Source of the DNA: a virus
Virus record (IMG/VR): IMGVR_UViG_3300044678_000568
Span: 1 to 22,114 of that record
DNA length: 22,114 nucleotides
Reading direction: 5' to 3' (one strand)
Below the pieces are notes generated by a model that searched no databases, was not told the origin of the DNA, and saw only the letters and a program-made list of their open reading frames with translations. A program made the position numbers and the translations under genes. Positions 14-14,664 of the stretch are shown here, piece by piece (positions within the stretch are counted from its first letter, which is position 1; the number at the start of each line of letters is the position of its first letter).

Positions 14-283
14 GTGTCAAGTACATTTGAAAACTTTTTTAAATTATTTTTTTGTTTAAACATAACCGCATCTATCTTTTAGTTTTACCTGCGGTAAAAC
101 CTACCTTACCATCCGTGTCAAGTACCACTGTTTAAACATTTAAATAACAGTACACATACTTGGGTGTCAACTCTTGTACTGTTTAAACGCTATGCAATTA
201 GCAATCCCTGGGTGTGAGTGCTAATTGTTTAAACACAACTATAGTTATTTGGGTGTCAACTTTTTATGTGTTAAAACACATAA
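14..283. repeat. Imperfect direct-repeat and dyad array at left end
   Basis: The units share TGGGTGTCAAC or CGTGTCAAG followed by GTTTAAAC. GTGTCA (or GTGTGA) begins at 14, 115, 164, 212 and 253, so four neighbouring units are spaced 49, 48 and 41 bases apart. Exact GTTTAAAC copies lie at 54, 130, 181 and 227; the last unit has GTTAAAAC instead. Perfect inverted repeats are interleaved: GTTTTACC/GGTAAAAC (82-89/93-100), CAATTAGCA/TGCTAATTG (195-203/219-227), TTATGTGT/ACACATAA (264-271/276-283) and CCCAAC/GTTGGG (288-293/301-306). TGTCAA is the complement of a TTGACA -35 box, but I found no good -10 at 16-19 bases in the visible units, so a protein-binding array (operators or replication iterons) fits better than stacked promoters. 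The L5 stoperators of mycobacteriophages also contain TGTCAAG; that resemblance is only suggestive. Confidence 0.7.
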
Positions 284-312
284 TGCACCCAACGATTTTT
301 GTTGGGCAAAAG

Positions 313-350
313 AAAAACCCCCGCCAAAGCAGGGGCTTTAGCAGGGGTTT
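313..350 (-). terminator. Rho-independent terminator of the leftward operon
   Basis: Read leftward, AAACCCC and GCTAAAGC pair with GCTTTGGC and GGGGTTT around a 4-nt CCCT loop, and the stem runs into a T-rich tail (TTTTTCTTTTG). Two positions that are U-G wobbles in the leftward transcript would be C-A mismatches in a rightward one, so the structure is tuned to the leftward RNA. It lies about 40 bases past the stop of the glutamine amidotransferase gene, the last gene of that operon. Confidence 0.8.
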
Positions 351-388
351 CTTATTCGGCTCGCCTTCCACGAAAAGCCGAAACTTAT

Positions 389-1195
389 TTAGAATAGGTG
401 CGAGTCATAGTAACTTGCATGCTCGCTTAACTCATCCTCATACTTTCCGATTGCGTACTTGCGCCAGTCGTGACTGATTGCTGAGCGGTAAGGCTTGAAC
501 TTCTGATGCTCAATAATCTTTCCGTTCTTAACCTTGAAGTACTCGCCTTCCTCTGCTGAGTATGACCAGTCAAGGTCTGAGCCAAGCATGATGCCTGCGT
601 TCTCGATTGTCTCCTCTGTTGAACCATAAACCAGCGAACCAGTAAGGGTCTGACCTATCCACAGTGGGCTGTTGGATACACGAGCAAGGTGCAAGGTGTC
701 GCCTTGGTCTTGGGTAATCCAAGCCAGTGCAGCACTACCTTGGATGCGTGTCAGTACCTCGGCAGGATGTTGACCTTTAGTAAAGGCAAGCAATGCAGCG
801 ACAGCCTCTGAATCTACTTGACCGATGCGGTCAACCTTGAGTTGTTTAAACAGTTGGTCATCGTTGCTGATGTGTCCGTTGTGAGTGAGTACGATTTTGC
901 CACGAGGAATTGGGTGGTTGTTGTCGTTAATGGTTGGCGAACCCTGAGTTGCCCAGCGTGTATGCAAGATTGCAGTTGTTGCATCCTTGCACACATTCTG
1001 ACCAGCCTTGGTTGCGATGAACTTAGAGGCTGAGATTGGTGCCTTAGTAATGGCACGCTTTCCCTCCTTGTTAATCCATGCCACACCAGTGGCGTGATAG
1101 CCACGATGTTCGATGTCGAGAAGCATCTGCGATGCTAACTCTGTTGTATTGACATGATGCTTTGGGTTAAGGCAGAAGCCTGCGATTCCACACAT
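389..1195 (-). CDS. Stand-alone class II (Ntn-type) glutamine amidotransferase
   Basis: Class II amidotransferases hydrolyse glutamine to glutamate and ammonia with an N-terminal cysteine, usually passing the ammonia to a fused or partner synthase. The 268-residue product begins MCGIAGF, placing the nucleophile at Cys2 once Met is removed. The rest of the GlmS/PurF-type signature follows: HRGYHATG (30-37), HTRWATQG (78-85), NHP (93-95), HNGHISN (105-111) and DSE (128-130). There is no room for an isomerase, phosphoribosyltransferase or synthetase domain; after the amidotransferase fold (to about residue 205) only a short polar tail follows. GGAG lies 8 bases before the ATG, inside the 3' end of the preceding gene, whose TAA abuts this ATG, so the two are translationally coupled. 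It is the last gene of the operon that also encodes an amidoligase, its most likely partner. Family assignment is firm; the acceptor is unknown. Confidence 0.9.
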   Translation of the reverse strand: MCGIAGFCLNPKHHVNTTELASQMLLDIEHRGYHATGVAWINKEGKRAITKAPISASKFIATKAGQNVCKDATTAILHTRWATQGSPTINDNNHPIPRGKIVLTHNGHISNDDQLFKQLKVDRIGQVDSEAVAALLAFTKGQHPAEVLTRIQGSAALAWITQDQGDTLHLARVSNSPLWIGQTLTGSLVYGSTEETIENAGIMLGSDLDWSYSAEEGEYFKVKNGKIIEHQKFKPYRSAISHDWRKYAIGKYEDELSEHASYYDSHLF

Positions 1196-1381
1196 TTATT
1201 TATTCTCCAGTCTGTTAGGTGTTGATGTTCTGATTGTATCACGATTGGTGCGCGTTCCAATAACCTTGTTTAAACAGTCACTTGCAACGAGGTAATCTGC
1301 ATCTGATTTGGAGTAAACCCCAGCGAACTTGCGCCCGCTTGGGTCTACACCTTCCACGATGTATAACAATTCGTTACTCAT
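1196..1381 (-). CDS. Small hypothetical protein, 61 aa
   Basis: Unrecognised 61-residue soluble protein with the N-terminal stretch LLYIVEGVDPSGRKFAGVYS, which looks like two beta strands, then a polar C-terminus rich in Arg, Thr and Asn. Its ATG overlaps the end of the upstream 33-residue membrane-protein gene (ATGAGTAA arrangement), and its own stop directly precedes the amidotransferase ATG; it also carries that gene's Shine-Dalgarno sequence. An exact GTTTAAAC at 1268 is read in frame as part of Cys-Leu-Asn-Lys. Its position suggests co-translation with the amidotransferase. No function can be assigned from sequence. Confidence 0.7.
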   Translation of the reverse strand: MSNELLYIVEGVDPSGRKFAGVYSKSDADYLVASDCLNKVIGTRTNRDTIRTSTPNRLENK

Positions 1382-1475
1382 TGCTATCTGTTGCCAGTAG
1401 GTAGAAGTAGTAAACGATTCCAGCGATTGTCATGAACAGAAGCGCACGACCATCTGTGAAGAATGATAAGTCCAT
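1374..1475 (-). CDS. Very small membrane protein, 33 aa
   Basis: Starting at the ATG directly after a GTTTAAAC motif, the frame encodes 33 residues: an N-terminal MDLSFFTDGR, one hydrophobic helix (about residues 11-28, ALLFMTIAGIVYYFYLLA) and a short acidic TDSNE tail. This is a plausible single-pass inner-membrane microprotein. The junction has the same stop-motif-start layout as the two upstream small genes: the preceding gene ends GTT TAA inside GTTTAAAC and this ATG follows 2 bases later. The 3' end overlaps the next ATG, typical of coupled phage genes. Single-span phage microproteins can act in lysis or superinfection exclusion, but nothing here decides that. No strong Shine-Dalgarno is visible. 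Confidence 0.6.
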   Translation of the reverse strand: MDLSFFTDGRALLFMTIAGIVYYFYLLATDSNE

Positions 1476-1477
1476 GT

Positions 1478-1633
1478 TTAAACACCCACTGTTCTTAGTA
1501 GTTGCAGGATTACAGCATCCTGTGCATCCAGCACTTTATTGTGATGAGTACGGCATAGGTGTACCTCGCCTCCGAATGGGTGAGCAATGGTGTAATCCCT
1601 TGTGTCGTTACAGTTTTGAGCATCGCACTTCAT
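1478..1633 (-). CDS. Cys/His-rich zinc-finger-like microprotein, 51 aa
   Basis: The product has Cys3, Cys8, Cys27, His30 and His31 (CDAQNC followed by HLCRTHH), a CxxxxC plus CxxH(H) pattern compatible with one zinc site, followed by a helix-forming C-terminus. A longer frame starting at 1675 exists, but the 1633 start is preferred: AAGGAG precedes it with an 11-base spacer that contains GTTTAAAC, and the identical 20-base arrangement precedes the ATG of the upstream small gene. The stop TAA (1478-1480) lies inside the next GTTTAAAC copy. It is one of three consecutive Cys-rich microproteins. Such phage proteins often bind host nucleic acid or protein, but no specific function can be given. 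Confidence 0.7.
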   Translation of the reverse strand: MKCDAQNCNDTRDYTIAHPFGGEVHLCRTHHNKVLDAQDAVILQLLRTVGV

Positions 1634-1757
1634 GTTTAAACACGCTCCTTCGTAGTCTCGCCACACTCTTGGCATGACCAGTAGATTCCGTCTTGGCTTG
1701 ATGAATAGTCAACGCTTGCGCCACAGTCTTTGCATCTCATGTTTAAACACGCTCCTT
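1631..1757 (-). repeat. 20-bp direct repeat carrying SD, motif and start codon
   Basis: Two exact copies of AAGGAGCGTGTTTAAACATG (leftward strand) occupy 1738-1757 and 1631-1650. Each contains the Shine-Dalgarno, the last codons and stop of one gene (GAG CGT GTT TAA), and the ATG of the next. A shorter related copy (GTGTTTAAACATG) is at 1473-1485. The genes between the copies differ, so the identity marks the boundary and not a gene duplication. Confidence 0.85.
1636..1740 (-). CDS. Zinc-ribbon microprotein, 34 aa
   Basis: The frame encodes a 34-residue protein with two CxxC knuckles, CKDC (residues 3-6) and CQEC (about 23-26), the spacing of a minimal four-cysteine zinc ribbon. The stop TAA (1636-1638) is inside GTTTAAAC (1634-1641). 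The start has AAGGAG 11 bases upstream, with a second GTTTAAAC lying between it and the ATG. The last codons (KERV, stop) supply the Shine-Dalgarno for the next gene. The upstream 49-residue neighbour ends with the same KERV. Being so short it is easily missed, but motif, ribosome site and junction pattern agree. Function unknown. Confidence 0.7.
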   Translation of the reverse strand: MRCKDCGASVDYSSSQDGIYWSCQECGETTKERV

Positions 1758-1892
1758 GTAGCACTTGTCGCACACTTGGTAATCGGTTAGTTCATTCTGT
1801 GAGTTTACATCTTGGTATTGCTTTGTCGCTGGCTTGTTACACCATGCACACAACCCAACACGAGTTCCCCACTGCTTTTCAATCGTAATCAT
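1743..1892 (-). CDS. Zinc-ribbon microprotein, 49 aa
   Basis: The frame encodes 49 residues with CAWC (15-18) and CDKC (41-44), a four-cysteine zinc-ribbon pattern with a longer loop than in the 34-residue neighbour. It ends KERV with the stop TAA (1743-1745) inside GTTTAAAC (1741-1748). AGGA about 9 bases before the ATG is a usable Shine-Dalgarno, and another GTTTAAAC (1909) lies further upstream. It is the first of the run of small genes that follows the amidoligase. The conserved tail and differing body suggest exchangeable small-gene cassettes. Biochemical role unknown. Confidence 0.7.
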   Translation of the reverse strand: MITIEKQWGTRVGLCAWCNKPATKQYQDVNSQNELTDYQVCDKCYKERV

Positions 1893-1919
1893 GATTCCAG
1901 TCCTATCTGTTTAAACAGT

Positions 1920-1989
1920 GCGAGACTTTCTCGCATCTGCTTGTGCCTGCCGAGGGTAACGCTCCCTCGCTTGCCCACTTGGGGCAGGC
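1920..1989 (-). other. Structured intergenic element: three-way junction plus hairpin
   Basis: Between the amidoligase stop and the zinc-ribbon genes, GCCTGC (1945-1950) pairs with GCAGGC (1984-1989). The 33 bases inside hold two further perfect hairpins: CGAGGG/CCCTCG (1951-1956/1964-1969) and CCC/GGG (1974-1976/1981-1983). A separate perfect hairpin, GCGAGA/TCTCGC, occupies 1920-1934. All stems are symmetric, so either strand could fold. It could be an operon-internal processing or attenuation element or a small RNA; it has no T-tract. A short frame overlapping the next ATG also crosses this stretch but lacks a ribosome site. Confidence 0.55.
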
Positions 1990-1996
1990 TGTCGGC

Positions 1997-2770
1997 TTAC
2001 GCCTGACCTTGTAGACTCAAGGCGCGTTGCTTGAGGTATTCCGCTGTTCGTACATCGAGGTTGTCCTGTGCGATTTCATCGAGCAGGGTTTGGATGTTGT
2101 TTAAACGGATGTCTGTTCGTGAGTAGGTTGCTCCGAGCAGATTGTTGCCCTTGCTGTAATCAATGAGTCCTGCAATGAACTCTGCCCAAGCAACAGCCTT
2201 GCGACCATTCAAGGTGCCTTGGTGTAGGCGAACCTCGATTGTGCCATGGCGGTCAAAAGATTCGAGGTTGAGAGACACATAGCGGTCACCGATTCCGATT
2301 CTGCCTGAGCGAATTTGCTCGGCTGTGCGGTGAGCCTCCTCGATTGTGCGGACCTTGCAGAAACGATTGTTTAAACGGCTTGGGGCAACCAAGGTGCCGA
2401 TTGTCTCGTGTGCTGTGTGCCAGTTGATGTAAAAATTGGCAAGCGCGTTGAACCTATCGTTGAGCGTATCGCCAAAACTGTCGAAACCGATATGGACATG
2501 GTAACCAGTTGAGCGGTCAACCCTTGCGCCTGCATTTAACAACAAGCGTGCAACAGTTGATGCCTCGTTTAAACGGGCATCGTTGAGGATTGGAGAAACT
2601 ACCTCCGCGCCTTGGATTGAGCCGTCATAAACAGCCGTCCACTCGGTTGAGAGGACATGCTGATTGCGAGGGGCGAGACAGTTGATTCCGCCCTGAGTCA
2701 AAACAGTTGAGGCGGTGGATGGGGAGATTCCGTTGACCTCGAACTCGAGTCCGTATGTGAAAGTAGACAT
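1997..2770 (-). CDS. Amidoligase_2-family enzyme (glutamine synthetase-like fold)
   Basis: This 257-residue protein matches the phage/prophage amidoligase family, which is related to glutamine synthetase and carboxylate-amine ligases and forms amide or peptide-like bonds using ATP. Visible signatures are YGLEFEV (6-12), YDGSIQGAEVVSPIL (48-62), GYHVHIG (89-95), LNLES and GTIEVRLHQGTLNG (167-189), and Trp195 in the C-terminal part; together they supply the acidic, histidine and arginine residues used for metal, ATP and substrate. GGAGG is 8 bases before the ATG, and the TAA of the upstream gene falls between them in GCTTAAACC, a one-base variant of the repeated motif. Comparative genomics has linked this family to class II glutamine amidotransferases; one is encoded in the same operon. 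Cytoplasmic; the substrate is unknown. Three exact GTTTAAAC copies lie inside the gene. Confidence 0.88.
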   Translation of the reverse strand: MSTFTYGLEFEVNGISPSTASTVLTQGGINCLAPRNQHVLSTEWTAVYDGSIQGAEVVSPILNDARLNEASTVARLLLNAGARVDRSTGYHVHIGFDSFGDTLNDRFNALANFYINWHTAHETIGTLVAPSRLNNRFCKVRTIEEAHRTAEQIRSGRIGIGDRYVSLNLESFDRHGTIEVRLHQGTLNGRKAVAWAEFIAGLIDYSKGNNLLGATYSRTDIRLNNIQTLLDEIAQDNLDVRTAEYLKQRALSLQGQA

Positions 2771-2773
2771 GGT

Positions 2774-3343
2774 TTAAGCCTCCACTAGAGATTGGTTGCA
2801 TGCAGGGCAGATTGGGGAGCCAAGATTCACGAGAGTTGAGCGAGAAACTCGGGCAATGTAGTTGTCGTTTAAACAGGCAACCTTGATGAGGCGAGTTGAT
2901 TGTTTTGGAGCCTCGGTCAATTCGATTTTGGCGTGAGGGTATGCACCAAGGCGAGCCAAAATTGGCTCAACCCATGAGGGCAAGGACTCGAGAGGCTTAG
3001 CAACCGAGGCAGAGGCTCCGCGCCAGTTTCCAGCCTGAGCAACCTTGAGCAGGGGCAGAATTAGACGGGCAACAGTCTCGGCATCGTCCACAGTTGGAGC
3101 CACAAAAATCTCGGCTGTGAAATCGGCTGAGGCTGTTGGAGGCACGATTGAGGCTGAAACAGCCTTGCGCCCTGATTTTGGAGGAAAGCCACAGGAAAGG
3201 CGAATTGCAGATTCCTCATCGCCTCCGTTTTGGATAGTTGAGGCAAGGTGAGGGCGTACAGCAATGGCAAGGCTTGCCAGCCACTGTTCGCGGTTAAGTA
3301 CAGGCATTTGGTGCATCCAGTCTGTCGGGGGTTTTGCCGACAT
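2774..3343 (-). CDS. SprT-like protein lacking the HExxH protease motif
   Basis: The 189-residue protein has the layout I recall for the actinophage SprT-like family: an N-terminal helix (LNREQWLASLAIAVRPHL), a CGFPPKSGRKA beta region, a strand EIFVAP, a helix, LGAYPHAKIEL, and a C-terminal ribbon-like end (IKVACLNDNYIARVSR, then PICPACNQSLVEA). In that family the helix after the strand carries HExxH for zinc; here the corresponding VARLILPLLKVAQ has no His-Glu pair. The first knuckle of the C-terminal ribbon is also broken (CLND in place of CxxC), exactly where a GTTTAAAC copy lies. It is therefore probably a catalytically dead derivative, or a family of its own. It is the first gene of the leftward operon and has no Shine-Dalgarno; the start fits a leaderless mRNA. 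Homology is from memory and moderately sure. Confidence 0.6.
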   Translation of the reverse strand: MSAKPPTDWMHQMPVLNREQWLASLAIAVRPHLASTIQNGGDEESAIRLSCGFPPKSGRKAVSASIVPPTASADFTAEIFVAPTVDDAETVARLILPLLKVAQAGNWRGASASVAKPLESLPSWVEPILARLGAYPHAKIELTEAPKQSTRLIKVACLNDNYIARVSRSTLVNLGSPICPACNQSLVEA

Positions 3344-3378
3344 GGAGAAATTTAGGGCATCGGTTTAAACACTGTCAA
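3344..3378 (-). promoter_or_regulatory. Leftward promoter, leaderless, with GTTTAAAC in spacer
   Basis: On the minus strand a perfect TTGACA (3373-3378) is followed after 18 bases by TAAATT (3349-3354; four of six -10 positions match). Only five bases separate this -10 from the ATG at 3343, so transcription would start on or next to the start codon, which agrees with the absence of a Shine-Dalgarno. The GTTTAAAC at 3363-3370 lies within the spacer, where a bound protein would block RNA polymerase. Confidence 0.65.
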
Positions 3379-3938
3379 CAGATAACGGCAAAAAATATAA
3401 AACCGCAGGTCGCTACGCATAAAACTTTTTTGCGACACGAGGCTTTTGGGGTGGATTTTGTGGCACAAAACAGCCGACAGCGAACAGCAAAAGTTTAAAC
3501 AGTCGTAAGTTACCGATGAGTAACAAGGCTAAAGTCAGTGCTATACACTGATAATTCGTTTCTTACTGTATCGGCGTAACTCTAAAGTGTCGTTAAACAA
3601 CTGACTTTAGCGATTTACTGGCGAGTAACTTATGGCGGTTGTTGAACTTTCAACTACTTGCGCTGTGCCTGCATGCTGGGGGGGAGCGCGATACTGTGAA
3701 ACAGCGCGAGCCTATACACAGTCAGCGCCAGCCCAAGCCCTAGCCCTGCCCTGTCCTAGCCAAGCCTGCATGCATAGCCTTGCAAGCAGGTGCTTAACTG
3801 TTTAAACAGCAAGCATTGCAGGTGGGTGAGTCATCACCCCAGGGTTATTAAACTGCTGGTATCGGTATCGGTATATCTCTACCTACATAAATTTGATAGT
3901 GGTGGGGGTCTGAGCAGGACTTTTACCCATAAGCAACA
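3379..3938. other. Noncoding divergent control region
   Basis: No credible gene was found between the leftward promoter and the Crp-type box. Besides the inverted repeat, the stretch holds GTTTAAAC copies at 3493 and 3800 (the latter a 12-bp palindrome CTGTTTAAACAG flanked by TGCTT and AAGCA), a run of seven G at 3678-3684, a CTGT-GAA-ACAG hairpin at 3694-3704 flanked by CGCG on both sides, a C-rich strand-biased run with repeated (A/T)AGCC words (about 3728-3780) and three GGTATC/GGTATA hexamers in tandem (3858-3875). The composition is typical of a phage control or origin region. Confidence 0.6.
3506..3632. repeat. Long imperfect inverted repeat with inner operator-like dyad
   Basis: The arms are TAAGTTAC ... 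GCTAAAGTCAG (3506-3538) and CTGACTTTAGC ... GTAACTTA (3601-3632). The inner 11 bases and outer 8 bases are perfect, and the middle is partly conserved (AGTAA). The left arm merges into a perfect dyad, TCAGTG-CTATA-CACTGA (3535-3551), typical in size of a repressor operator. It lies between the divergent promoters. It could be an operator pair for looping or a replication-origin element. Confidence 0.65.
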
Positions 3939-3956
3939 GTGTGATGTAAATCACAC
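3939..3956. promoter_or_regulatory. Crp/GlxR-type binding site
   Basis: GTGTGATGTAAATCACAC is a perfect palindrome in its arms and matches TGTGA-N6-TCACA exactly, the consensus shared by E. coli CRP, mycobacterial Crp and corynebacterial GlxR. Its centre (3947.5) lies about 57-62 bases before the start points predicted from the two TATAGT boxes downstream, close to the class I activator position. This suggests that the late operon is tied to host cAMP-type signalling; binding is inferred. Confidence 0.65.
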
Positions 3957-3963
3957 GCTATAA

Positions 3964-4002
3964 AGTGTCCAATAGTGTCCTTCTGGACACCTATAGTATA
4001 GT
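3964..4002 (+). promoter_or_regulatory. Probable late promoter -10 with overlapping half-sites
   Basis: Two overlapping TATAGT hexamers (3992-3997 and 3997-4002) each match five of six -10 positions, but no -35 box lies 16-18 bases upstream. Instead AGTGTCC occurs at 3964-3970 and again one helical turn later at 3974-3980, followed by the inverted GGACAC at 3985-3990. A promoter lacking a -35 element, with an activator box upstream and a repeat over the -35 position, fits regulated transcription of the terminase operon. Confidence 0.5.
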
Positions 4003-4060
4003 GAGAGGCGAAAATATCGAAGCCTCTCTGCTAAGCAACAGCGCCCTCTAGGGGCGCACC

Positions 4061-4110
4061 CTAAATGAAGCCCTAACCTTCGGCTTCGTTTAGACTTCGC
4101 CTTCGGTTAG
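4061..4110 (+). promoter_or_regulatory. 5' leader with two mutually exclusive hairpins
   Basis: CTAAATGAAGCC (4061-4072) pairs with GGCTTCGTTTAG (4082-4093), 12 pairs with one wobble and a 9-base loop. The loop CTAACC (4073-4078) can instead pair with GGTTAG (4105-4110), with GGC/GCC inside, which would disrupt the first stem. A small GCGCCC/GGGCGC hairpin (4041-4057) precedes them. They end 42 bases before the preferred terminase start, so they may control its translation or transcription. Confidence 0.5.
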
Positions 4111-4152
4111 AGTTTGCCCCAAAACTCACCACAAATGGTTTTGGAGCATGCT

Positions 4153-6012
4153 ATGGAAAGAAAGAGAACAACCTCTGCTTCGCATAAAAGCGATGCTATT
4201 AAAAAGCAAGTCATTGACTTCCTAATGCAGGGGTACTCTGTCCAAAAGGCGATGGATGCCGTAGGTCGAAGTGTTAAGACCTATGAGTATTACCGAAAGA
4301 CCGATGAACAATTTGCCTTAGCCATTGACAAGATTCGCTCAATGACAGCACGGGGTGAGGTCGGCTCTCCACGAGGGGAAGTACCACCCTTCCCAGAGTT
4401 TTCAGAAAAATTTTTAGGGGTCCAAGTATTCCCCCATCAAAAGCACTGGATTGATTTACTAGAGGGTCGAGAGCCTGAGGATATTCATCCTGCCATCTCC
4501 TATGAACCTGGGTCATCAGACTTAATCATAGTCAACACCCCACCAGAACACGCTAAGTCTACGACCATTACAGTCAACTATGCGGTATATCGGATTTGCC
4601 AGAACCCTAATATCAGAATCATGATTGTGTCCAAGACACAGGCTATGGCACAGAAATTCCTGCTTTCTATCAAGAATCGCCTAACCCATCCTCGTTATCA
4701 GGATTTACAACTAACCTTTGGTCCGCCAGGGGGATATGAAAAAAATTCCGATTCGTGGAAGCAGGACCTAATTTACCTATCCTCCGAGTCTCGTGACTCT
4801 GGAGAAAAGGACCCTACAGTTCAGGCTGTGGGTATTCGTGGTCATATCTATGGTGCCCGTGCTGACTTAATCATCATGGACGACTGTGTTGACCACACCA
4901 ACGCCCATGAGTATGAAAAGCAGATTGACTGGATTCAATCCGAAGTTATGTCTCGTATTGACAATGACGGCGGACGGCTACTGGTTGTAGGTACTCGACT
5001 ACGCCCACGAGATTTATATTCCGAATTGCGTGACCCTATGCGCTATCCAGACGAGACATCCCCTTGGACATACTTTGCCCAACCTGCCGTATTGGAGTTC
5101 GCAGATGACTCGAAGGACTGGGTTACGCTCTGGGCTAAGACCAACATGCCTCCCGTATCTGGCAATGGTGTACCTGATGAGGACGGACTCTACGACAAGT
5201 GGACAGGTCCAGCACTGCATAAGAAGCGAAGCCGTATGTCCCCGAACTTGTGGGCGATGGTCTACCAACAGCAACAGGTTCACGAAGATTCTGCTTTCCC
5301 ATCAGATGCTATCAAAGGCGTTATTAACGGCGCTCGCAATATTGGGATTATCCCGAAGGGTAAGCATGGCGTTCGACCTAATGGTATGGACGGGCTTATT
5401 GTGGTTGCTGGTCTTGACCCCGCTGGCTCTGGTTATACCGCCGCTGTGGTTCTTGGCTTGGATGTTTCTACGCAGAAGCGTTACTTGCTGGATGTCTCCA
5501 ATGTTGCGGGGATGAAACCAGATGAGATTCGTGGCTTAATCAAAGACTGGACTGAACGCTACAGAGTTACTGAGTGGCGTGTTGAGAAGAACGCATTTCA
5601 GACAATGCTTACGCAGGATAGAGAAGTCCGTGAGTTCTTAACTCGCAGTGGTTCTATGTTGCGCGAACACCATACTGGTCAGAACAAGTGGGACTCAGAC
5701 TTTGGTGTGGCATCTCTAACAACTTTGTTTTATGGATGGGATGAAGGCAATGCTCTTATTGAGTTCCCTTCAACACATTCTTCTGAGGGTCTTAAGGCTC
5801 TCATTGAACAACTTGTGACATGGTATCCAGATTCACCTAAGTCACAAAAGACAGATACAGTCATGGCGTTCTGGTTTGCAGAACTTGGATGTCGTGACCG
5901 CTTGGCAAGTGCAACTAACTTTTCTAAGAATCACAACAGAATGGGCATGTTTCATACGCCGTATGACCGCTCAAAACAATACACCGTCAATCTTGACGAA
6001 CTATACGCATAG
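4153..6012 (+). CDS. terL: Terminase large subunit (DNA-packaging ATPase/nuclease)
   Basis: TerL docks on the portal, drives DNA into the capsid by ATP hydrolysis and cuts the concatemer. From the ATG at 4153 the product has 619 residues. An N-terminal helix-turn-helix-like stretch (about 20-45, FLMQGYSVQKAMDAVGRS) resembles small-terminase DNA-binding segments. The ATPase domain has a deviant Walker A, PPEHAKSTT (130-138), Walker B LIIMDD (239-244) and the coupling motif GTR (280-282). The RNase-H-like nuclease begins at GLDPAGSG (about 420) and ends with DTVMAFWFAELG. Frames open further upstream (TTG 4114, ATG 4135), but only 4153 has a Shine-Dalgarno (TTGGAG, 6 bases away). The portal gene follows after 14 bases. 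No separate small terminase gene is visible in the window. Confidence 0.93.
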   Translation: MERKRTTSASHKSDAIKKQVIDFLMQGYSVQKAMDAVGRSVKTYEYYRKTDEQFALAIDKIRSMTARGEVGSPRGEVPPFPEFSEKFLGVQVFPHQKHWIDLLEGREPEDIHPAISYEPGSSDLIIVNTPPEHAKSTTITVNYAVYRICQNPNIRIMIVSKTQAMAQKFLLSIKNRLTHPRYQDLQLTFGPPGGYEKNSDSWKQDLIYLSSESRDSGEKDPTVQAVGIRGHIYGARADLIIMDDCVDHTNAHEYEKQIDWIQSEVMSRIDNDGGRLLVVGTRLRPRDLYSELRDPMRYPDETSPWTYFAQPAVLEFADDSKDWVTLWAKTNMPPVSGNGVPDEDGLYDKWTGPALHKKRSRMSPNLWAMVYQQQQVHEDSAFPSDAIKGVINGARNIGIIPKGKHGVRPNGMDGLIVVAGLDPAGSGYTAAVVLGLDVSTQKRYLLDVSNVAGMKPDEIRGLIKDWTERYRVTEWRVEKNAFQTMLTQDREVREFLTRSGSMLREHHTGQNKWDSDFGVASLTTLFYGWDEGNALIEFPSTHSSEGLKALIEQLVTWYPDSPKSQKTDTVMAFWFAELGCRDRLASATNFSKNHNRMGMFHTPYDRSKQYTVNLDELYA

Positions 6013-6026
6013 AACAGGAGGCGAAT

Positions 6027-7856
6027 GTGGCTCTATCTTTAGATGATATTAAAGATAACTATGACCGCTACCGCCAGCAATTCGCCGAGCGAGACAGCCG
6101 CATGGAAGCAGTGCTGCTTGTCCGCAAGGGTCGCATGCGTGATGTTTACCCAGACCTTTTCCCCGATGGTCCTTTTGAAAATCCTATCGTGGCAAATATG
6201 GTGGACATCGCAGCACGCGACTTGTCAGAAGTAATTGCTCCGCTACCAGCATTTAACTGCAACTCACCTACCATGGTGTCAGAGGCTGCTCGTAAGAAGG
6301 CAGACAAGCGTGAAGAAATTGTTAACTCTTATGTTGACTTCTCTGACTTGCAGACACAAATGTTTACAGCAGCAGACCGCTATGTATCTTATGGCTTTGT
6401 TCCTGCACAAGTAGAGTTCGACATGGAAGCGCAGATGCCTCGCATCCGTTTCTTAGAAGCAGTTGGTTCTTACCCAATCATTGACCGCTTTGGAAATGTT
6501 AACGCACTTTACCAGCGCACAATGAAGCCAGTATCTGAACTTATGGCTTTGTACCCAGAGTATGCACACATCTTGTACGACAAGGATGAGCACAACTCAA
6601 TGACATCTTTGTTGGAAGTTGTGCGTTATCACGACAAAGACCAGGATGTTTTATTTGTACCAACACGCAATAACCTTGTTATTGACCGTGCTAAAAACCC
6701 TATTGGCGAATGTATGGTCCGCGTTGTTATGCGCCCATCACTTGACTCACAGGCTCGTGGTCAATTTGATGATGTATTGCCAATCCAAGTAGCAAAGGCA
6801 CGCTATGCACTTCTCTCACTTGAAGCAGCAACTAAAGCAGTTCAAGCACCCATGGTCGCACCAAGAGATGTCAGTGATATTGCTCTTGGACCAGATGCTA
6901 TTATTCGTACAGAACGACCTCAAGATGTCCGAAGAATTCCACTGGAGATACCAGCAGGTGCTTTTGCACAGCAGCAGGTTCTTGAAGGAGAGTTGCGTTT
7001 AGGCTCTCGTTATCCTGAATCTCGTACAGGTAACATTGATGCTTCAATCGTTACAGGTCGTGGTGTTCAAGCCCTTATGGGTGGATTCGATACACAGATT
7101 AAAACAGCACACGCAATGTTTGCTCGTGCATTTGTCGAATTGATGAGCCTTGCTCTCAAAGTTGACGAAATGGTATTTGCCGATGTTGAGAAGAACCTAC
7201 GCGGTACACGCAATGGAACTCCATACAACATCAAGTACAAGCCAAAGAAGGACATTGATGGTGATTACACCGTAGATGTTCAATATGGTTTGATGGCAGG
7301 ACTTGACCCTAACCGCGCATTGGTATTTGGTCTACAGGCTCGCGGAGATAAGTTGATTTCACGCGACTTCCTACGCCGTCAGATGCCTTTCTCTTTCAAT
7401 GCAACACAAGAAGAAGAAAAGGTTGACACCGAAGAACTGCGCGATGCAATGAAGCAAGCGATTGCTTCTTATGCTCAGGCTATTCCAGCCCTTGCTTCTC
7501 AAGGTCAAGACCCATCTGACATTCTTTACAAACTTTCATCCGTTATCAATGCACGCCAGAAGGGAACCTCTATTGAGGTTGCGGTTTCTGATGCGTTTAA
7601 ACCACAGAATCCCCCACCTGGTGCGATGACCCCTGAGGGTATCGTAAGTCCTGACATGATTGGGCAGCCAGGCGCGGTCCCACCAGGTGAGGGCGAACTT
7701 CCACTAGGCATGTCTGCAACTGGTCGTATGCAAGGTGTAGCACCAGGACAGATTGCTCCAGGCGGTCGTCCAGATGTTCAATCTCTTTTAGCAGGATTAA
7801 CAGCGAGAGGCGAACCTAATCTACAGGCTTCTCTCCAAAGACGAGTACCAGTATAA
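6027..7856 (+). CDS. Portal protein
   Basis: The portal is the dodecameric ring at the capsid vertex through which TerL packages DNA. The 609-residue protein directly follows terL and has the features of actinophage-type portals: an early charged helix, VANMVDIAARDLSEVIAPLPAF, a beta-rich central clip/stem (for example RIRFLEAVGSYPIIDRFGN at 147-165), a segment around residues 335-360 (RTGNIDASIVTGRGVQALMGG) preceding long helices, and a Pro/Gly-rich disordered C-terminus. The start is GTG at 6027 with AGGAGG 5 bases upstream; an ATG two bases earlier is out of frame and stops at once. The C-terminus is low complexity, as expected for a flexible tail. One of the few rightward-block copies of GTTTAAAC is at 7595. 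The assignment rests on order, length and residue pattern. Confidence 0.85.
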   Translation: MALSLDDIKDNYDRYRQQFAERDSRMEAVLLVRKGRMRDVYPDLFPDGPFENPIVANMVDIAARDLSEVIAPLPAFNCNSPTMVSEAARKKADKREEIVNSYVDFSDLQTQMFTAADRYVSYGFVPAQVEFDMEAQMPRIRFLEAVGSYPIIDRFGNVNALYQRTMKPVSELMALYPEYAHILYDKDEHNSMTSLLEVVRYHDKDQDVLFVPTRNNLVIDRAKNPIGECMVRVVMRPSLDSQARGQFDDVLPIQVAKARYALLSLEAATKAVQAPMVAPRDVSDIALGPDAIIRTERPQDVRRIPLEIPAGAFAQQQVLEGELRLGSRYPESRTGNIDASIVTGRGVQALMGGFDTQIKTAHAMFARAFVELMSLALKVDEMVFADVEKNLRGTRNGTPYNIKYKPKKDIDGDYTVDVQYGLMAGLDPNRALVFGLQARGDKLISRDFLRRQMPFSFNATQEEEKVDTEELRDAMKQAIASYAQAIPALASQGQDPSDILYKLSSVINARQKGTSIEVAVSDAFKPQNPPPGAMTPEGIVSPDMIGQPGAVPPGEGELPLGMSATGRMQGVAPGQIAPGGRPDVQSLLAGLTARGEPNLQASLQRRVPV

Positions 7857-7868
7857 AGGGGGTGAAAA

Positions 7869-8036
7869 ATGAAGAAAGCGACAGCAAAGAAAGCAACAGG
7901 AAAGAAGCCAGCGAACCAAGGTTCAGCAGGTAAGCCTAACTACCAGAAGCCTATGAAGTCATCTGTTAAGAAGATGTCTAATAAGTCAGGTATGTTGTAC
8001 ACAACAAAGCAGCCAGGTGGCACACGCGGTAAGTAA
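7869..8036 (+). CDS. Lys-rich basic microprotein, 55 aa
   Basis: This short frame encodes a strongly basic, low-complexity protein beginning MKKATAKKATGKKPANQGS and ending QPGGTRGK. AGGGGGTG four to five bases before the ATG is a strong ribosome site. It lies 12 bases after the portal stop and resembles the Lys-rich microproteins downstream of the capsid gene. A nucleic-acid-binding or DNA-condensing virion component is plausible but not shown. Confidence in the gene itself comes from the ribosome site and the packing. Confidence 0.75.
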   Translation: MKKATAKKATGKKPANQGSAGKPNYQKPMKSSVKKMSNKSGMLYTTKQPGGTRGK

Positions 8037-8107
8037 TTCTTAATCCTGAGCATGATTTAAAACTGCTCAACTAATTTTAAAAGACTGAACTTAATTGTGA
8101 GGGAACT
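8037..8107 (+). other. Short AT-rich intergenic spacer
   Basis: The 71 bases hold a small GAGC/GCTC stem-loop (about 8048-8070) and the Shine-Dalgarno GAGGGA of the next gene. No promoter or terminator with convincing boxes was seen. Confidence 0.4.
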
Positions 8108-8539
8108 ATGGCACTGCCAAAAGATAAGAACTTTCAGGTGTCCGCAACAGGCGGAGCGGGAACTAATGGTCAACCAGCACGCTATGCAGCAGGCATAGAC
8201 GGCGCACAGGATTTTTATGACCTACAGACTGCAGCACAAATGAGTGGCTCAAACCCAGCGTTCTCTGCAGTTCCTTCCCCATCAGGACAACGCCCATTCC
8301 GAGGCGACAGCGCAGCACCACTTGTTCGACTAGATGCTCCAACTCAACGCCCTGAGGAAGATGTCCGCACTGGTGCAACCATTGCTCCAAACACAATGTA
8401 TGCAACAGATGGAATGGCAAACTCAGAAGATGCAGACCGCATGCGTGCAGCACTTCCATATCTTTCAACACTTGCAGAGTTGCCACAGACATCAAATAAT
8501 TTCCGCAACTATGTACGATACTTAAAGAGTGTACTTTGA
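8108..8539 (+). CDS. Hypothetical virion-module protein, 143 aa
   Basis: The 143-residue product is Ala/Gly/Pro-rich and mostly polar without a clear fold: an N-terminal SATGGAGTNGQPARYAAG, a central Pro/Arg-rich region and a C-terminal helix (DADRMRAALPYLSTLAELPQ) that then reads NNFRNYVRYLKSVL. GAGGGA six to seven bases upstream supports the ATG. Its TGA overlaps the TTG start of the giant gene that follows, implying translational coupling. Position between portal and a large internal virion protein suggests a connector-associated or chaperone role, but I do not recognise the family. Confidence 0.75.
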   Translation: MALPKDKNFQVSATGGAGTNGQPARYAAGIDGAQDFYDLQTAAQMSGSNPAFSAVPSPSGQRPFRGDSAAPLVRLDAPTQRPEEDVRTGATIAPNTMYATDGMANSEDADRMRAALPYLSTLAELPQTSNNFRNYVRYLKSVL

Positions 8540-11500
8540 GTTTTTCCGAGACACTTGGCAGTTTTGCCAAAAAACTTCAAGGTAACGGATTTGCCAACGA
8601 TATAGGCTTACCGACTTTATTATACGACCTTGCTTCTGTGTCATCTAATGACAAAAGTTGGGTGGGCGATGCATTTAATTTTGCTGGCAATGCGTTTAGA
8701 ACATCAGTATCAACAGTATCTTTTCCAATTCGCAAAACAGCAGGTTTTGTAATTCAAAAAGGTTTACTTCCAGCAGCACAAATATCTTACGAAACTGGTG
8801 GTCGTTACCTTCGTGAGCCATTATCAGCAGGATTAACAACACTTGCAACTGGTGATGCAAAGAAGTCATGGGAAAATCGTGATGAGATTTCTCCAGGTCA
8901 AGCACTTGCTTATTTACAGTCAAAGTTTCCTATAAGTGGAAATATGGTCATGGGGTTTGATGAAGATTTTGACATCTTTAACCCTAATGACCGACAAGAT
9001 TTTTATACAGACTTTACATTAAATAAACTTAGTGGTGCTTACGATACATTTTTTACAACAGTAACTGACCCACTAGGCAAGATTGGTAAAGCAGCAGGTC
9101 TTGCAAAGAAGGCTTTTGTTACTCGTCCACTTGGCGCTGTTGATGCTAACGCACAATCTTTGGCTCGTGATTTCTTTATGCCAAAGAGTATCCGCAAGAC
9201 AACAATTATTTCTCCTAAGACTCTTGCAGATAATATTAACGCAGGGCGTGAAGAAGGCGGAGAACTTTACAATACGCTTTCATGGATGGCTAAAAGCGAC
9301 CAAGTTGCAATACGCAGTCACCCAGTAATTGAAGCATCTAACGATGCAGATACATTGTCATACCTTCTTGGTGAGGCAAAGACTGTAGATGATGTTGCAG
9401 ATGTTCTTATGGCTACAGCACTTAAAGACAAAGGTGCAATGAAAAACCTTGTTGATAAGCGTTTAGATTTTAAGTTTGTTATGGATAAAATTAGAGACAC
9501 ATCCACAACAGAAATAAACATGTTGAACAATGTTCCTACTAACGGCATTGTTGACGACATCAATAAGTTAGATGCTGCAGATGCTTTTCTTAAAGTACTT
9601 GATGAAAATGAAGTTTATTATCAGTACCTAACGACACTTAACGCAAAAGGTGCAGACTTAACTAAGCGTACATTTGGTGCTTCACCATTTGAGAAGATGG
9701 CTATTAACCGCGCTGAGCGCCGTGCTGGTCGTGTTCGTGGTAAAGCAGATGATGTAGATACTCCAACAAACTTCCCTACAGTAGGTTACTTTCAACCAAC
9801 AAAGTACCACCCGCTTGTTGCGGTTGTTAACTTTGGTCTAACAAAGGTAGGCGATGCTTTCCAAGAAAAGCCAGCAGGATATATTAACCTTAACGATTCT
9901 GATTCGTATAACGAAATTGCGGCATTTGGCGGGCTTCTTCGCCGCATTGTTGGAGAAGAATCAAACCCAATTATCGAAAGACATTTAAACGACTACATCC
10001 AATCAGGTGGTACTCCTGAACTTCGTGCTCGTGTAGTTGAGTCATTTGAAGATTTAGCAATCACTTCTATTAACCGCAAACTTGGTATCTCTGATGAAGC
10101 AGGTGCACAGATTTGGGGCGCATACAAGTCTCGCCGTGAAACTGCACGCTCTATGATTCGTGACCGCAAGTTCTTGATGACTGATGACGATGTTATTCTT
10201 AAGGTTCCTTACCTAGAGCGCCAAGGTGCCAACGCATTACCAATGGTTGACCTTGAAAACTACGAGCGCGTTCTTACAAAGAACAAGGGTTTGTTGACTG
10301 CTCTTGAAGGTGGCTTCAATGTAGTAGACCCAGATTCATGGCGCTACACCACAGGTATTTTAAATGATATGTGGAAGGCTTCTGTTCTTCTTCGCCTTGG
10401 TTACACAGTAAGAAATGTGTCAGAAGGTGCAATGTCTATCATGGCTAAGGGCTACGGCTTGATGGCTCTAGGTGACTTAAATCGTGAAGGTTTTGATGCA
10501 TGGTACACAAACCGCATCCGCGACATTGAGCGCATTACAGACCGCCGCATGGTAGCGCAAGGATTGCGTGAAAACTCTGTAGAGATGCGCCGTGCGTTTG
10601 CTGAGAAGCAGTATGAATTTATGGCTGCTGACCGCATGTACAACCAACTACTTGCGTATCTTCCAGCAGCAGAGCGTGCTTACCTCAATGGTAAGTTAGA
10701 CGAGGGACAACTCAGAGAAATTATTGATGTGTTCCAGTATTCAACTGGTGAGTACCTATACCACGGAACACCTACTCCTATAAATGGGTTTGATAACACT
10801 CGTCCATTAGCGATGAGTTTATCTCAAGATATTGCTAATCGTTATGCCGATGCTGCTATGCCACAGATTTCAGCCTCTGAAATTTACAAGCGCAAAACTG
10901 GTCGCGCATACACAATGCCAAAGAACCTTCGTACTCGTGAAGGTGAACTTGTTAAAGAAGGTAAAGCAAAAAAGCCGTCACTTTCTATGCAAACCATCGC
11001 AGCAGATATGCGCGAAGGTTTTATCAATAGCACTGACAATGGTAATCAGGTAGAACTTCTTAACCCTCAAAGTGGTGAATGGCGTGCTATCAACCCATAT
11101 AATGTTTCACAGAAGATGCTTGTTGAAGGCACATTCCGTATTCGTAAGCCTGGTAATCAGGGAGCAACCCTTGGCAACAAGGTGTACGGACTTCCTGTTG
11201 ATGTGCGTTTGTTTAATGGCAATCGTACTCAACTAGGACTCAAGGATTATCCAGAACTGCAAAAGATTCTTGGTGTTGGCGAAACTGCTGGCTGGAAAAC
11301 TCGTGCAGCATGGGAAGGCAAAGAGGATGCAATCCTTGGCTGGATGCGTGCTAATGGTGTTGGCAAGTTAATCTTGCCTGACACCAAGGCTAACGGTGGT
11401 GCAACAGCACTTGTTGACCCTGACATGGTTGAAGCCTTTGGACAGCAACCATCTGTTCGACTTGCTGAGCAGCGCTTAGATGCAATTAAGAAGCAGCAAC

Positions 11501-14500
11501 AGTTGCTATCAGAAGAATCTCGTGTTGCTAAACTTATTGAAGATACCATTGCAAATGGTGGAGCAACAGTTTCATTTACTGGAGATGTACCTACACAAGG
11601 TTACTCTGTTGCAGTTCGTGGTGCTACACATACATTTTCTTTAGAAGATGCTCGTAATAATCCACAGGCATGGATTGATTCCGTGGCTGCACACTTTGAA
11701 AAGAACCTTGAGAAGTTTGGAACAGCAGACCACTTTGGCACTTGGGTAGAAGATATTGATGGCGTGCCACATATTTGGGCTGACCCTACAAATGTTATTG
11801 TAGACAAAGCAAAGGCTGCTAGACTAGGACTTGAAAGAAACCAAGTTAATGTTGCTGACCTAGCCGCAATTAAAAGAGGCGACTGGGACAACGCTATGAT
11901 TGACACTAAGGGCACAGGAGATAAAAATGCCAGCGCAGAATTTGCATTGGGTCAAGGCACCCAAGCCAGTATCGGAAATGTCGCAAGAGGAACGCAAGGC
12001 GTTCGCAGAGTTATTGGCACAGAGGGCTTTGGAAAACGCATTAGCGAACTCGAAGCCATCCTCAGCACAGGAAAGTATCCAACAGACGGGCTTGTAAATC
12101 TTGTTCGTGAGTTTGCTGATGGGCAGGCTGCAGCAAAGCGTGACATGAATGGTCTATTAACTAGACTAGATGCACGCCTTGTAGAAGAAGCACGGATAGC
12201 AGCACCTCGTGCTATTCAGGGTACAGGTCGCCGTTTTGAAACTCTTTATGATGGAACAGTTATTGAGATTGATGATGCTTTCCGTGGTGAAGGTGGAGCA
12301 ATTCTTTTATCTCAAACAGATAACGCACAGTCTTATCGCAATTTTGTAGACCACCCAGCACAATTATTTAGTGCTGAGCACACAAACTTTACCGAGGCTC
12401 GTCTTACACCTAAGATGCCTGAGTACTACACAGGTTATGCAAACCAACTTAATACTTTCTTCCGCTCACCTGATGGTCGCATTGACCCAGTAATTGAAAT
12501 GTTCCTTAATGGAATGAAGCCAGAGCAGGCTGTTGCTTGGTTGCGTAAACCAGAAAATGCTACTTATGCTCGTAGGTTTAACATTGATGTTCCTGGTATC
12601 AAGGTAATGTCAGAGCGTTTAAATGTATCTATGGATGCAGAAGATTTTGTTGGTGACTTATACAGCGCCTATAACCGCTACCTTCCAGATGGTGAAGTGC
12701 AAGAAGCCTTCCGTAATGGCGAAGCAACCGAGCAATGGTTGCGTACTCACTTTACTGATAACCCAGATATGCCAGACATTATTGGTCGTATCGTGCCTAC
12801 AAGCCCAGAAGCGGCTAACTGGCGTGAGGGTATGAGTAAGGTTGTAGAGCGTGCGTTCCACTTCCTTGGCTCATTGCCTGAAACAACAGTGGCTCGTCAC
12901 CCATTAGCCCGTCAGATTTACCGCGCTGAATACAAGAACCGTTTAGATATTGCTCTTGCTACAAAGCGTTTAAACGAAGGCGATGCTGCTGAACTTACTG
13001 TAGATGAGATTAACAATCTACGCGGACAGGTCATTGAGGCTACACGCAAAGAAGTTAATAGCACACTCTTTACCATTATTCGCAAGTCATACGCAGGCGA
13101 AAAAATGCGTTTCATTATGCCGTTCTTTAACGCATGGGAAAACACTATCCGCCGTTGGTATGGACTTACTAAGGAAAATCCAGCAGTTGTCGCCCGTGCA
13201 GGACAGGTTATTTCTTCTCTGCGTAACCAGCCAAATGTGGTTGACCAAGATGGTAACCCAACTACTGAGTTTAGTTATGACAATAAGATTGTCCTACCTA
13301 TGCCAGAAGGTGCGATTAAAACAATCAGCCTTATTCCAGGGTGGGGCAAGGGAATGGCAGAGGCAATGCGTTCATCTGGAACACAGATGTCTATTCCAAT
13401 CCGAAGCCTTGACCTCTTGTTCCAAGGTGAAGCACTTGCGGGATTTGGTCCTATCGTAACTATCCCAGTTAATGAATTAGTTTTGATGAAGCCAGACCTA
13501 GAAGATATAGTCACATCAAGCGTGCTACCAGTTCTTCCATTTGGTCCACAAGGCTCCAGCAAAGATGTTATTCAAAGAATGGTAAGCCAACTGTTTCCAC
13601 CTGCAGCACAGAAACTTATTTCTTTGCAGGGTCAAGATGAAGCATGGAGCCGTACATTCAACACTGTTTACCGCTATGAGTTAATTCGTTTTAACCTTGG
13701 CGAGCGCAATACGCTACCTGAACTAGGTGAGATTAAAAACTTGGCAGATAGCCTGTATAGAGTTAGGATTCTTTCTAACTTGGTAATGCCATTTGCTGCA
13801 CAGTATGACTCAACTTTGAGTTTCTATACTCAACAGTTCCGCCGTTTGCAACAAGTTTATGGTGCAGATGCAGAGGCTTTATTCCTTGAGATGTACCCTG
13901 AAATGGGTCCTGCTTTAGTTAGCGCCTCATATAACCCAACTGGTGCTGTTGCATCACAGGCTGCATTTAAGAACATCCAGAAGTACGGTGGCTTGATTGG
14001 CAAGATTGGTCAGACTACACCTGAAATGATTGGCTTCTTAGTCAATGACCCTGATGGCAAGTATGACTTCTCAGAAGCAGTTTATGCATGGCAGTATGGC
14101 AATGCCCCTGTTCCTGGTTCTACAGAGAACTATCGTACTCGCCGTAACCCAGCAGACTTGAAGAAGGATGCTAATGTGAAGATGGGTTGGATTGAGTTCC
14201 GCAAGAACATGAACCTTCTTAACTCACAACTGTTTGCACAAGGCTACGAATCTTATAGTGAATCAGGTGCTGAGGAGTTGCAGGCTATTAAGCAGATGAT
14301 GGTTGCTGACCTGACTAGTCGTAATAAAGATTGGGCTGTGGATTACTTTAGTGTAGACCGAGGTAAGTGGGTCTATCGTATGGACTCAATGCGTACAATG
14401 TTAAGCGACCCTACATGGATGAAAGAAAATGGTCAGCGCCAAGTAGTTCAGGCTATGGCTGTTTATCTAAATGTACGCACACAAATTGCACGAGAGTTGG

Positions 14501-14664
14501 CAAGCCGTAAAGCATACGGAATGGCATCAACTCTTGCGGCAAAAGACAATGCAGACCTTGATGGTTTGTGGAATAAGACAATCGCTCAACTACTTCAAGG
14601 CTCTGGTGAGTTTGAAGATTTCTATAACCGTTTCTTGCAAAATGACCCTGTGACTTTGGGATAG
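8536..14664 (+). CDS. Giant polyvalent-type virion protein with ART-like segment
   Basis: This 2042-residue protein is most likely carried in the virion and ejected with the DNA, as the large multi-domain (polyvalent) proteins of many podoviruses are thought to be. Residues about 736-970 resemble an ADP-ribosyltransferase-like domain: EYLYHGTP (739-746), SLSQDIANRYADA (761-773), and the usual closing pattern WMRANGVGKLILPD followed by ALVDPDMV (about 936-967). Residues about 1005-1110 (GYSVAVRG, FGTWVED, LERNQVNVADL) match a domain often next to it in such proteins. Residues 1522-1548 (KMRFIMPFFNAWENTIRRWYGL) recall the long helical C-terminal part of internal virion proteins. The start is TTG overlapping the previous stop by four bases, with only a weak AGAG upstream. 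Domain calls are from pattern memory; the virion role is inferred. Confidence 0.75.
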   Translation: MSFSETLGSFAKKLQGNGFANDIGLPTLLYDLASVSSNDKSWVGDAFNFAGNAFRTSVSTVSFPIRKTAGFVIQKGLLPAAQISYETGGRYLREPLSAGLTTLATGDAKKSWENRDEISPGQALAYLQSKFPISGNMVMGFDEDFDIFNPNDRQDFYTDFTLNKLSGAYDTFFTTVTDPLGKIGKAAGLAKKAFVTRPLGAVDANAQSLARDFFMPKSIRKTTIISPKTLADNINAGREEGGELYNTLSWMAKSDQVAIRSHPVIEASNDADTLSYLLGEAKTVDDVADVLMATALKDKGAMKNLVDKRLDFKFVMDKIRDTSTTEINMLNNVPTNGIVDDINKLDAADAFLKVLDENEVYYQYLTTLNAKGADLTKRTFGASPFEKMAINRAERRAGRVRGKADDVDTPTNFPTVGYFQPTKYHPLVAVVNFGLTKVGDAFQEKPAGYINLNDSDSYNEIAAFGGLLRRIVGEESNPIIERHLNDYIQSGGTPELRARVVESFEDLAITSINRKLGISDEAGAQIWGAYKSRRETARSMIRDRKFLMTDDDVILKVPYLERQGANALPMVDLENYERVLTKNKGLLTALEGGFNVVDPDSWRYTTGILNDMWKASVLLRLGYTVRNVSEGAMSIMAKGYGLMALGDLNREGFDAWYTNRIRDIERITDRRMVAQGLRENSVEMRRAFAEKQYEFMAADRMYNQLLAYLPAAERAYLNGKLDEGQLREIIDVFQYSTGEYLYHGTPTPINGFDNTRPLAMSLSQDIANRYADAAMPQISASEIYKRKTGRAYTMPKNLRTREGELVKEGKAKKPSLSMQTIAADMREGFINSTDNGNQVELLNPQSGEWRAINPYNVSQKMLVEGTFRIRKPGNQGATLGNKVYGLPVDVRLFNGNRTQLGLKDYPELQKILGVGETAGWKTRAAWEGKEDAILGWMRANGVGKLILPDTKANGGATALVDPDMVEAFGQQPSVRLAEQRLDAIKKQQQLLSEESRVAKLIEDTIANGGATVSFTGDVPTQGYSVAVRGATHTFSLEDARNNPQAWIDSVAAHFEKNLEKFGTADHFGTWVEDIDGVPHIWADPTNVIVDKAKAARLGLERNQVNVADLAAIKRGDWDNAMIDTKGTGDKNASAEFALGQGTQASIGNVARGTQGVRRVIGTEGFGKRISELEAILSTGKYPTDGLVNLVREFADGQAAAKRDMNGLLTRLDARLVEEARIAAPRAIQGTGRRFETLYDGTVIEIDDAFRGEGGAILLSQTDNAQSYRNFVDHPAQLFSAEHTNFTEARLTPKMPEYYTGYANQLNTFFRSPDGRIDPVIEMFLNGMKPEQAVAWLRKPENATYARRFNIDVPGIKVMSERLNVSMDAEDFVGDLYSAYNRYLPDGEVQEAFRNGEATEQWLRTHFTDNPDMPDIIGRIVPTSPEAANWREGMSKVVERAFHFLGSLPETTVARHPLARQIYRAEYKNRLDIALATKRLNEGDAAELTVDEINNLRGQVIEATRKEVNSTLFTIIRKSYAGEKMRFIMPFFNAWENTIRRWYGLTKENPAVVARAGQVISSLRNQPNVVDQDGNPTTEFSYDNKIVLPMPEGAIKTISLIPGWGKGMAEAMRSSGTQMSIPIRSLDLLFQGEALAGFGPIVTIPVNELVLMKPDLEDIVTSSVLPVLPFGPQGSSKDVIQRMVSQLFPPAAQKLISLQGQDEAWSRTFNTVYRYELIRFNLGERNTLPELGEIKNLADSLYRVRILSNLVMPFAAQYDSTLSFYTQQFRRLQQVYGADAEALFLEMYPEMGPALVSASYNPTGAVASQAAFKNIQKYGGLIGKIGQTTPEMIGFLVNDPDGKYDFSEAVYAWQYGNAPVPGSTENYRTRRNPADLKKDANVKMGWIEFRKNMNLLNSQLFAQGYESYSESGAEELQAIKQMMVADLTSRNKDWAVDYFSVDRGKWVYRMDSMRTMLSDPTWMKENGQRQVVQAMAVYLNVRTQIARELASRKAYGMASTLAAKDNADLDGLWNKTIAQLLQGSGEFEDFYNRFLQNDPVTLG
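11927..12097 (+). CDS. Candidate nested gene inside the giant gene, 56 aa
   Basis: In a different forward frame within the giant gene, AGGAG sits 6 bases before an ATG opening a 56-residue frame that begins MPAQNLHWVKAPKPVSEMSQ. It continues into a strongly helical, charged amphipathic stretch (EERKAFAELLAQRALENALA, 21-40) and a polar tail. Both the ideal ribosome site and the natural-looking amino acid pattern are unusual for a chance frame. The overlying region of the giant protein is a linker between domains, which would tolerate dual coding. It could still be a coincidence. Confidence 0.35.
   Translation: MPAQNLHWVKAPKPVSEMSQEERKAFAELLAQRALENALANSKPSSAQESIQQTGL

Follow-up and report, generated by a model that had tools for sequence, protein, structure and literature searches.

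The 8-base palindrome GTTTAAAC, repeated through the early genes of a tailed phage, appears to be the binding site of a SprT-like protein, the product of the gene at 2774-3343(-). From sequence comparison, we infer that this protein binds the sites directly, represses its own gene and acts as a dispersed-site roadblock with a role in the life cycle, and we give this reading a probability of about 0.6. Proteins of this kind, derived from a protease that here is without its cutting site, probably form a class of viral repressors that has been overlooked and that binds these sites. The DNA analysed (the window) is the whole of a linear, incomplete IMG/VR virus record of 22,114 bases and forms part of a larger tailed phage. 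Its leftward genes encode GATase_6, amidoligase_2 and 189-aa proteins and are followed by rightward terminase, portal and capsid genes.

Twenty copies of GTTTAAAC were found in the window, 17 of them at 54-3807 and three across the other 18 kb (Table 1). Dinucleotide shuffles gave 0.53 expected copies per window and a maximum of 3, so that the copies counted by the first-pass annotation were all present and far above chance. Its impression that T is favoured before the palindrome and A after it was also real, since 16 of the 20 copies have the flanks Y-GTTTAAAC-R, and T or C on the 5' side and A or G on the 3' side are preferred among 1487 distinct sites family-wide. The site consensus is YGTTTAAACR, with the 8-bp palindrome as its core. 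The five leftward ORFs contain seven copies, whereas synonymous-codon shuffles, the codon-preserving comparison which that annotation had proposed, gave 0.48, and codon or composition bias was thus ruled out as the source of the sites. Its view that selection acts on DNA binding and not on protein is strongly supported by this shuffle, by exact conservation of the sites and by their concerted conversion in a sister class (see below). The TAA stop of the ORF at 1478-1675(-) is provided by the site at 1476-1483. The four TTGACA-like hexamers at 15-259 were not called as full promoters in a sigma-70 promoter scan. A different repeated word, GTGGTACT/AGTACCAC, was found nine times at 121-17582 (0.5 expected); three of these copies fall at 17557-17582, in a coding repeat rich in Gly.

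Table 1 Features of the window related to the GTTTAAAC array
Feature	Position	Strand	Remarks
Four GTTTAAAC sites, leftward control region	54-61, 130-137, 181-188, 227-234		
TTGACA-like -35 hexamers, leftward control region	20-15, 121-116, 170-165, 259-254	-	Found by eye
Class II glutamine amidotransferase-like gene	389-1195	-	Pfam GATase_6, 1e-20; one site, 844-851
Five sites in small leftward ORFs and spacers	1268-1916		Sites at 1268, 1476, 1634, 1741, 1909
Amidoligase_2-like gene	1997-2770	-	Pfam PF12224, 7e-18; three sites, 2099, 2369, 2567
SprT-like pseudoprotease, proposed motif reader, 189 aa	2774-3343	-	Internal site 2867-2874
SprT-like gene promoter	3349-3378	-	TTGACA 3378-3373, 18-nt spacer, TAAATT 3354-3349; GTTTAAAC 3363-3370 in spacer
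Two sites, gap between leftward operon and rightward terminase	3493-3807		3493-3500, 3800-3807
Outlying site, portal gene	7595-7602		
Outlying site, 2042-aa late gene	12968-12975		
Outlying site close to right end	21415-21422		

The first-pass annotation had described the enrichment as confined to the leftward operon, which turned out to be a truncation effect of the incomplete record. Hundreds of relatives of the window were found in IMG/VR, and in three complete circular ones (G016, G015 and G011; 39.6 kb, with a 123-base end overlap) the palindrome is dense over about 9 kb to the left of the terminase gene, a block that spans the leftward operon as well as rightward primase, sigma-like and kinase genes. 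Outside this block the sites are sparse yet above chance, with about 0.4 per kb in the late genes of G016, and the early-gene sites of the window's family occur every ~0.3 kb. The spacing of the G016 early array is more even than random (CV 0.51, p=1e-4), as is that of the arrays in phages Intolerant (CV 0.43), Yang (CV 0.44; p<5e-5 for both) and Pan1 (CV 0.34, p=0.001), these three against ~0.9, and in Gretchen (CV 0.47, p=0.004); in G029-G032 and G039 the site spacing was not more even than random. One relative, the 76,622-base IMG/VR contig G003 (L187-L190), carries two terminase genes 45% apart and is possibly two joined phages or a chimeric assembly.

The arrays fall into three motif classes, nearly mutually exclusive and each with ~2-5 sites per kb: class A, to which GTTTAAAC belongs; class B, with GTTTAGAC (36 copies in G002, where GTTTAAAC and GTCTAGAC both number 0); and class C, with a motif of ~10 bp centred on GTCTTAAG and weakly symmetric flanks. 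Orthologous GTTTAAAC sites remained exact at 71-78% DNA identity (7/7 in L033, 14/15 in L075), and of eight orthologous positions in class B, six have the site in a form that differs by one base, a concerted conversion to GTCTAAAC. The asymmetric sites, those of class B and GTGTAAAC, lie in mixed orientation relative to genes (15/18 for GTTTACAC/GTGTAAAC in Intolerant), which argues for recognition at the level of DNA and ruled out an RNA-level element. In classes A and B, the GATase (389-1195) and amidoligase_2 (1997-2770) genes occur as a pair in the early operon, whereas class C has neither.

Two phages, L009 and L016, have terminases 97% and 94% identical to that of the window, yet belong to class C, and a motif class that follows the structural-gene phylogeny was therefore ruled out. 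Their leftward block is foreign, with a 220-aa C-type SprT-like gene and no GATase or amidoligase gene, and in the rightward genes that they retained the A sites are down to 3 and 2 through point substitutions. The two arose by recombination, through which otherwise similar phages exchanged the leftward early block together with the motif class. Loss of the sites in close relatives that keep the genes, which the first-pass annotation had named as evidence against its reading, does occur here; since it coincides with the swap of the block encoding the putative reader, the idea is supported and not refuted. Immanuel3, which at ~49% terminase identity is the closest structural relative among isolated phages, has neither a SprT gene nor the motif.

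The 189-aa protein consists of a SprT-like N-terminal domain and a C-terminal zinc-ribbon-like domain (KQSTRLIKVACLNDNYIARVSRSTLVNLGSPICPAC) of the pattern KQxTR...C..C/D.Y..R.S...C..C; the alignment of homologues gave KQxTR...C..C....R.S....C..C. The protein alone had no Pfam match, and 28 of 69 aligned homologues matched the Pfam SprT-like family PF10263, which the window protein's family resembles in its N-terminal fold. Its AlphaFold2 model reached a pLDDT of 84.8, with >90 in the ribbon, and the best viral fold match of the model was the SprT of Bordetella phage FP1 (Foldseek, E=1.7e-10); sequence and fold searches of the PDB returned nothing useful. Judged by homology and predicted fold, the window protein is a member of the SprT family without the HExxH protease site. 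SprT/Spartan proteins are known for cleaving DNA-protein crosslinks in cells, and for jumbo phages cleavage of host proteins has been proposed (PMC7824862). The window protein and the class A and B proteins have lost HExxH, which class C proteins and most homologues from unrelated phages retain. In several class A members (G005, G007 and G011) only the ribbon is left, ~55 aa long, and the array is intact. The loss of the protease site, together with these ribbon-only sisters, points to DNA binding as the retained function.

The motif was linked to this protein from both directions. A search with paired GTTTAAAC retrieved unrelated phages, on contigs of 58-64 kb and other lengths, in which the palindrome occurs 20-54 times, and the homologue of the SprT-like 189-aa protein was the only protein consistently common to the unrelated 32-64 kb phages and the window's family. 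Outside that family, the SprT-like gene was present in 18 of 43 dense and 1 of 54 sparse contigs of the motif scan (p=5e-7). Conversely, among 90 loci of at least 7 kb fetched by the SprT-like protein only, GTTTAAAC was the most enriched 8-mer in 57 and among the top three in 65; GTTTAAAC or GTGTAAAC was in the top three in 53/62 viral and 14/28 GTDB loci. About a quarter of the SprT-positive viral or prophage loci, such as L396, had no clear enrichment. In a primase-selected control, the motif was found in 17 of 18 loci with the SprT gene and in 4 of 11 without it (p=0.0014), the latter being partly truncated. The Pseudanabaena phage (cyanophage) Pan1 has 10 copies against 0.1 expected, and motif-bearing prophage-like loci occur in Beta-, Alpha- and Gammaproteobacteria, Verrucomicrobiota, Streptomyces and Bacteroidota. 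GTGTAAAC is the motif of the high-GC actinophages (33 copies in Intolerant, 27 in Powerpuff, 22 in Zeta1847, 20 in Yang and 14 in Gretchen). Other enriched words were AGGAGTGCGC in Gretchen (L365), CCGCTATAAC in G033 (L343) and AGAGACAGA in L435.

Furthermore, the motif type changes with the ribbon type. KGRNTN ribbons go with GTCTTAAG in 64 of 66 loci, and KQxTR ribbons go with GTNTAAAC. Outside the window's family, loci with TRMxKVxC ribbons have 199 GTGTAAAC and 29 GTTTAAAC sites, and those with K[C/A]xC ribbons have 572 GTTTAAAC and 64 GTGTAAAC sites. L497, from a GTGTAAAC group, combines a K-C-E-C, CxxC ribbon with GTTTAAAC sites, both having been swapped together. Dismas and Armstrong, whose SprT-like proteins have SRSGKS in place of KQxTR, carry neither motif. 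These correlations are partly confounded by phylogeny, class C being almost one phage genus; despite this contribution, several independent lineages agree on the pairing of ribbon and motif sequences.

The placement of sites upstream of the SprT-like gene suggests autoregulation. The window promoter of this gene has 10/12 consensus matches, and the GTTTAAAC copy at 3363-3370, inside the 18-nt spacer, is best read as a putative autoregulatory operator. A site within 80 bp upstream was found for 58 of 65 class A SprT-like genes, ribbon-only genes included, against ~11 expected. It was also found at -24 to -81 in all six of the first motif-bearing isolates checked (Pan1, Yang, ep3, Intolerant, Alexa and Gretchen); ep3 has only four sites in 42 kb. 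In Powerpuff, the SprT gene immediately precedes the serine integrase gene and has a site at -44. In Zeta1847, the site at 33421 falls just inside the annotated start of the SprT gene (gene 45, L589:33389-34045); this start may be annotated too early, and one ~50 bases downstream would leave the site upstream.

In the mechanism that we propose, the zinc-ribbon-like domain would read the DNA, and the protein would repress its own gene by binding at the promoter, occupy the site cluster at the leftward control region and, through binding at sites across the early genes, block both initiation and elongation. In the window's family it would act as an early-gene shut-off. This is the likely role because integrase, recombinase and partition families were not found among the Pfam matches of the 50 predicted proteins of G016, and without an integrase a lysogeny role cannot simply apply to this family. 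The even spacing through whole genomes, late coding sequence included, exceeds the need of promoter operators and counts against the proposed mechanism. Proteolysis may be the ancestral role, many homologues having an intact protease site.

The first-pass annotation had compared the array with the stoperators of cluster A mycobacteriophages and the operators of SPbeta. Both are good functional analogues, but the protein of neither system was found, and the site here is symmetric and shows no orientation relative to transcription. Cluster A phages such as L5 and Bxb1 have tens of short dispersed sites, some in promoters but the majority elsewhere, and the consensus and the phage protein co-diverge between lineages (PMC6550527). 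The window's family likewise has tens of short dispersed sites, some in promoters. However, stoperators are asymmetric 13-bp sites that are oriented with transcription and bound by a two-domain HTH monomer (PMC9283540), whereas the sites here are an 8-bp palindrome or near-palindrome without orientation, the putative reader is a SprT-like/zinc-ribbon protein and the hosts belong to many phyla. Unlike in cluster A, lysogeny genes were not found in the complete relative G016, nor was an HTH-type immunity repressor among the Pfam matches of its 50 predicted proteins. The SPBRE of SPbeta are dispersed 15-bp elements in promoter regions only, and their repressor MrpR/YopR is a dead tyrosine recombinase (PMC10516654). 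The proposed reader would resemble MrpR as an enzyme that has lost catalysis, here a dead protease, but the sites here also lie deep in coding sequence and a recombinase-fold repressor was not found in G016.

Of the other explanations considered, it is unlikely that the sites are docking points at which the SprT-like protein, bound evenly over the phage genome as a protease, strips host DNA-binding proteins or DNA-protein crosslinks, with repression of its own gene as a side effect. In favour of docking, SprT/Spartan proteins remove crosslinked proteins by DNA-dependent proteolysis (PMC5127644), most homologues outside the window's family have HExxH intact, and whole-genome spacing is even in Intolerant, Yang and Pan1. 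Against it, the window's family is without HExxH and several of its members are without the whole protease domain while their array is intact; in addition, the autoregulatory placement is stronger than docking needs, and the array in this family is confined to early genes. That the sites serve DNA architecture, replication or packaging (phage nucleoid, priming, segregation) and not transcription control is highly improbable. Such a role would fit the even spacing and the sites inside coding sequence on both strands, but the sites of the window's family are limited to the early region, stand in promoters, lie far above chance upstream of the SprT gene and are without the orientation bias of Chi-like or packaging signals.

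A different reader, either host-encoded or a co-inherited small phage gene, with which the SprT-like gene co-travels or of which it is a target, is improbable, even though a site upstream of the SprT gene would also be expected of a mere regulon member and genes for WhiB-like and sigma-70 region 4 proteins occur in the window's family. These were the only DNA-binding families among the Pfam matches of the 50 predicted G016 proteins. The WhiB-like protein occurs in all classes, but its sequence is not separated by motif class, and it was rejected as the reader. Its fast-evolving gene (L167:8221-8574 in G016), which in each of the three motif classes adjoins a transglycosylase-like gene, suggests actinobacterial hosts. 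A host-encoded reader is disfavoured because cyanobacterial and actinobacterial phages share the motif with phages from other host phyla. The SprT-like family is present in 25 of 25 diverse motif-bearing genomes and no other protein family in more than 8, a comparison that is partly circular since many of these genomes were fetched by SprT. The motif also shifts with the ribbon sequence itself.

The SprT-like protein as reader of these sites would have consequences for temperate phages. It has been reported that Powerpuff (cluster AZ) is temperate and homoimmune and that all AZ/EH phages "lack identifiable repressors" (PMC8758107). The position of the Powerpuff SprT gene before the serine integrase, with its upstream site, makes the SprT-like protein a direct candidate for a repressor, and thus a candidate for the missing repressor of the homoimmune Arthrobacter AZ and Microbacterium EH phages. 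We see an even chance that phage SprT-like proteins are, more generally, widespread and unrecognised sequence-specific regulators, in which a ribbon code (KQxTR or KGRNTN, and the residue after TRMxK) would set the operator (GTTTAAAC, GTGTAAAC, GTCTAAAC or GTCTTAAG), the sites would be evenly spread, either across whole genomes or within early regions, the protease domain would be dispensable, and the AZ/EH immunity repressor would be one of them. An earlier description of GTTTAAAC or GTGTAAAC in phages or of a SprT-linked repeat was not found in the open-access literature searched, nor was a sequence-specific DNA site or repressor role for SprT/Spartan. If true, the proposal would give a function and a target sequence to the "SprT-like protease" family, annotated in far more than 100 phage isolates (163 records). 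It would also place a second enzyme fold, besides the recombinase fold of SPbeta MrpR, among the phage regulators that act at dispersed sites, and would offer a protein-DNA specificity code that could be read via natural motif switches.
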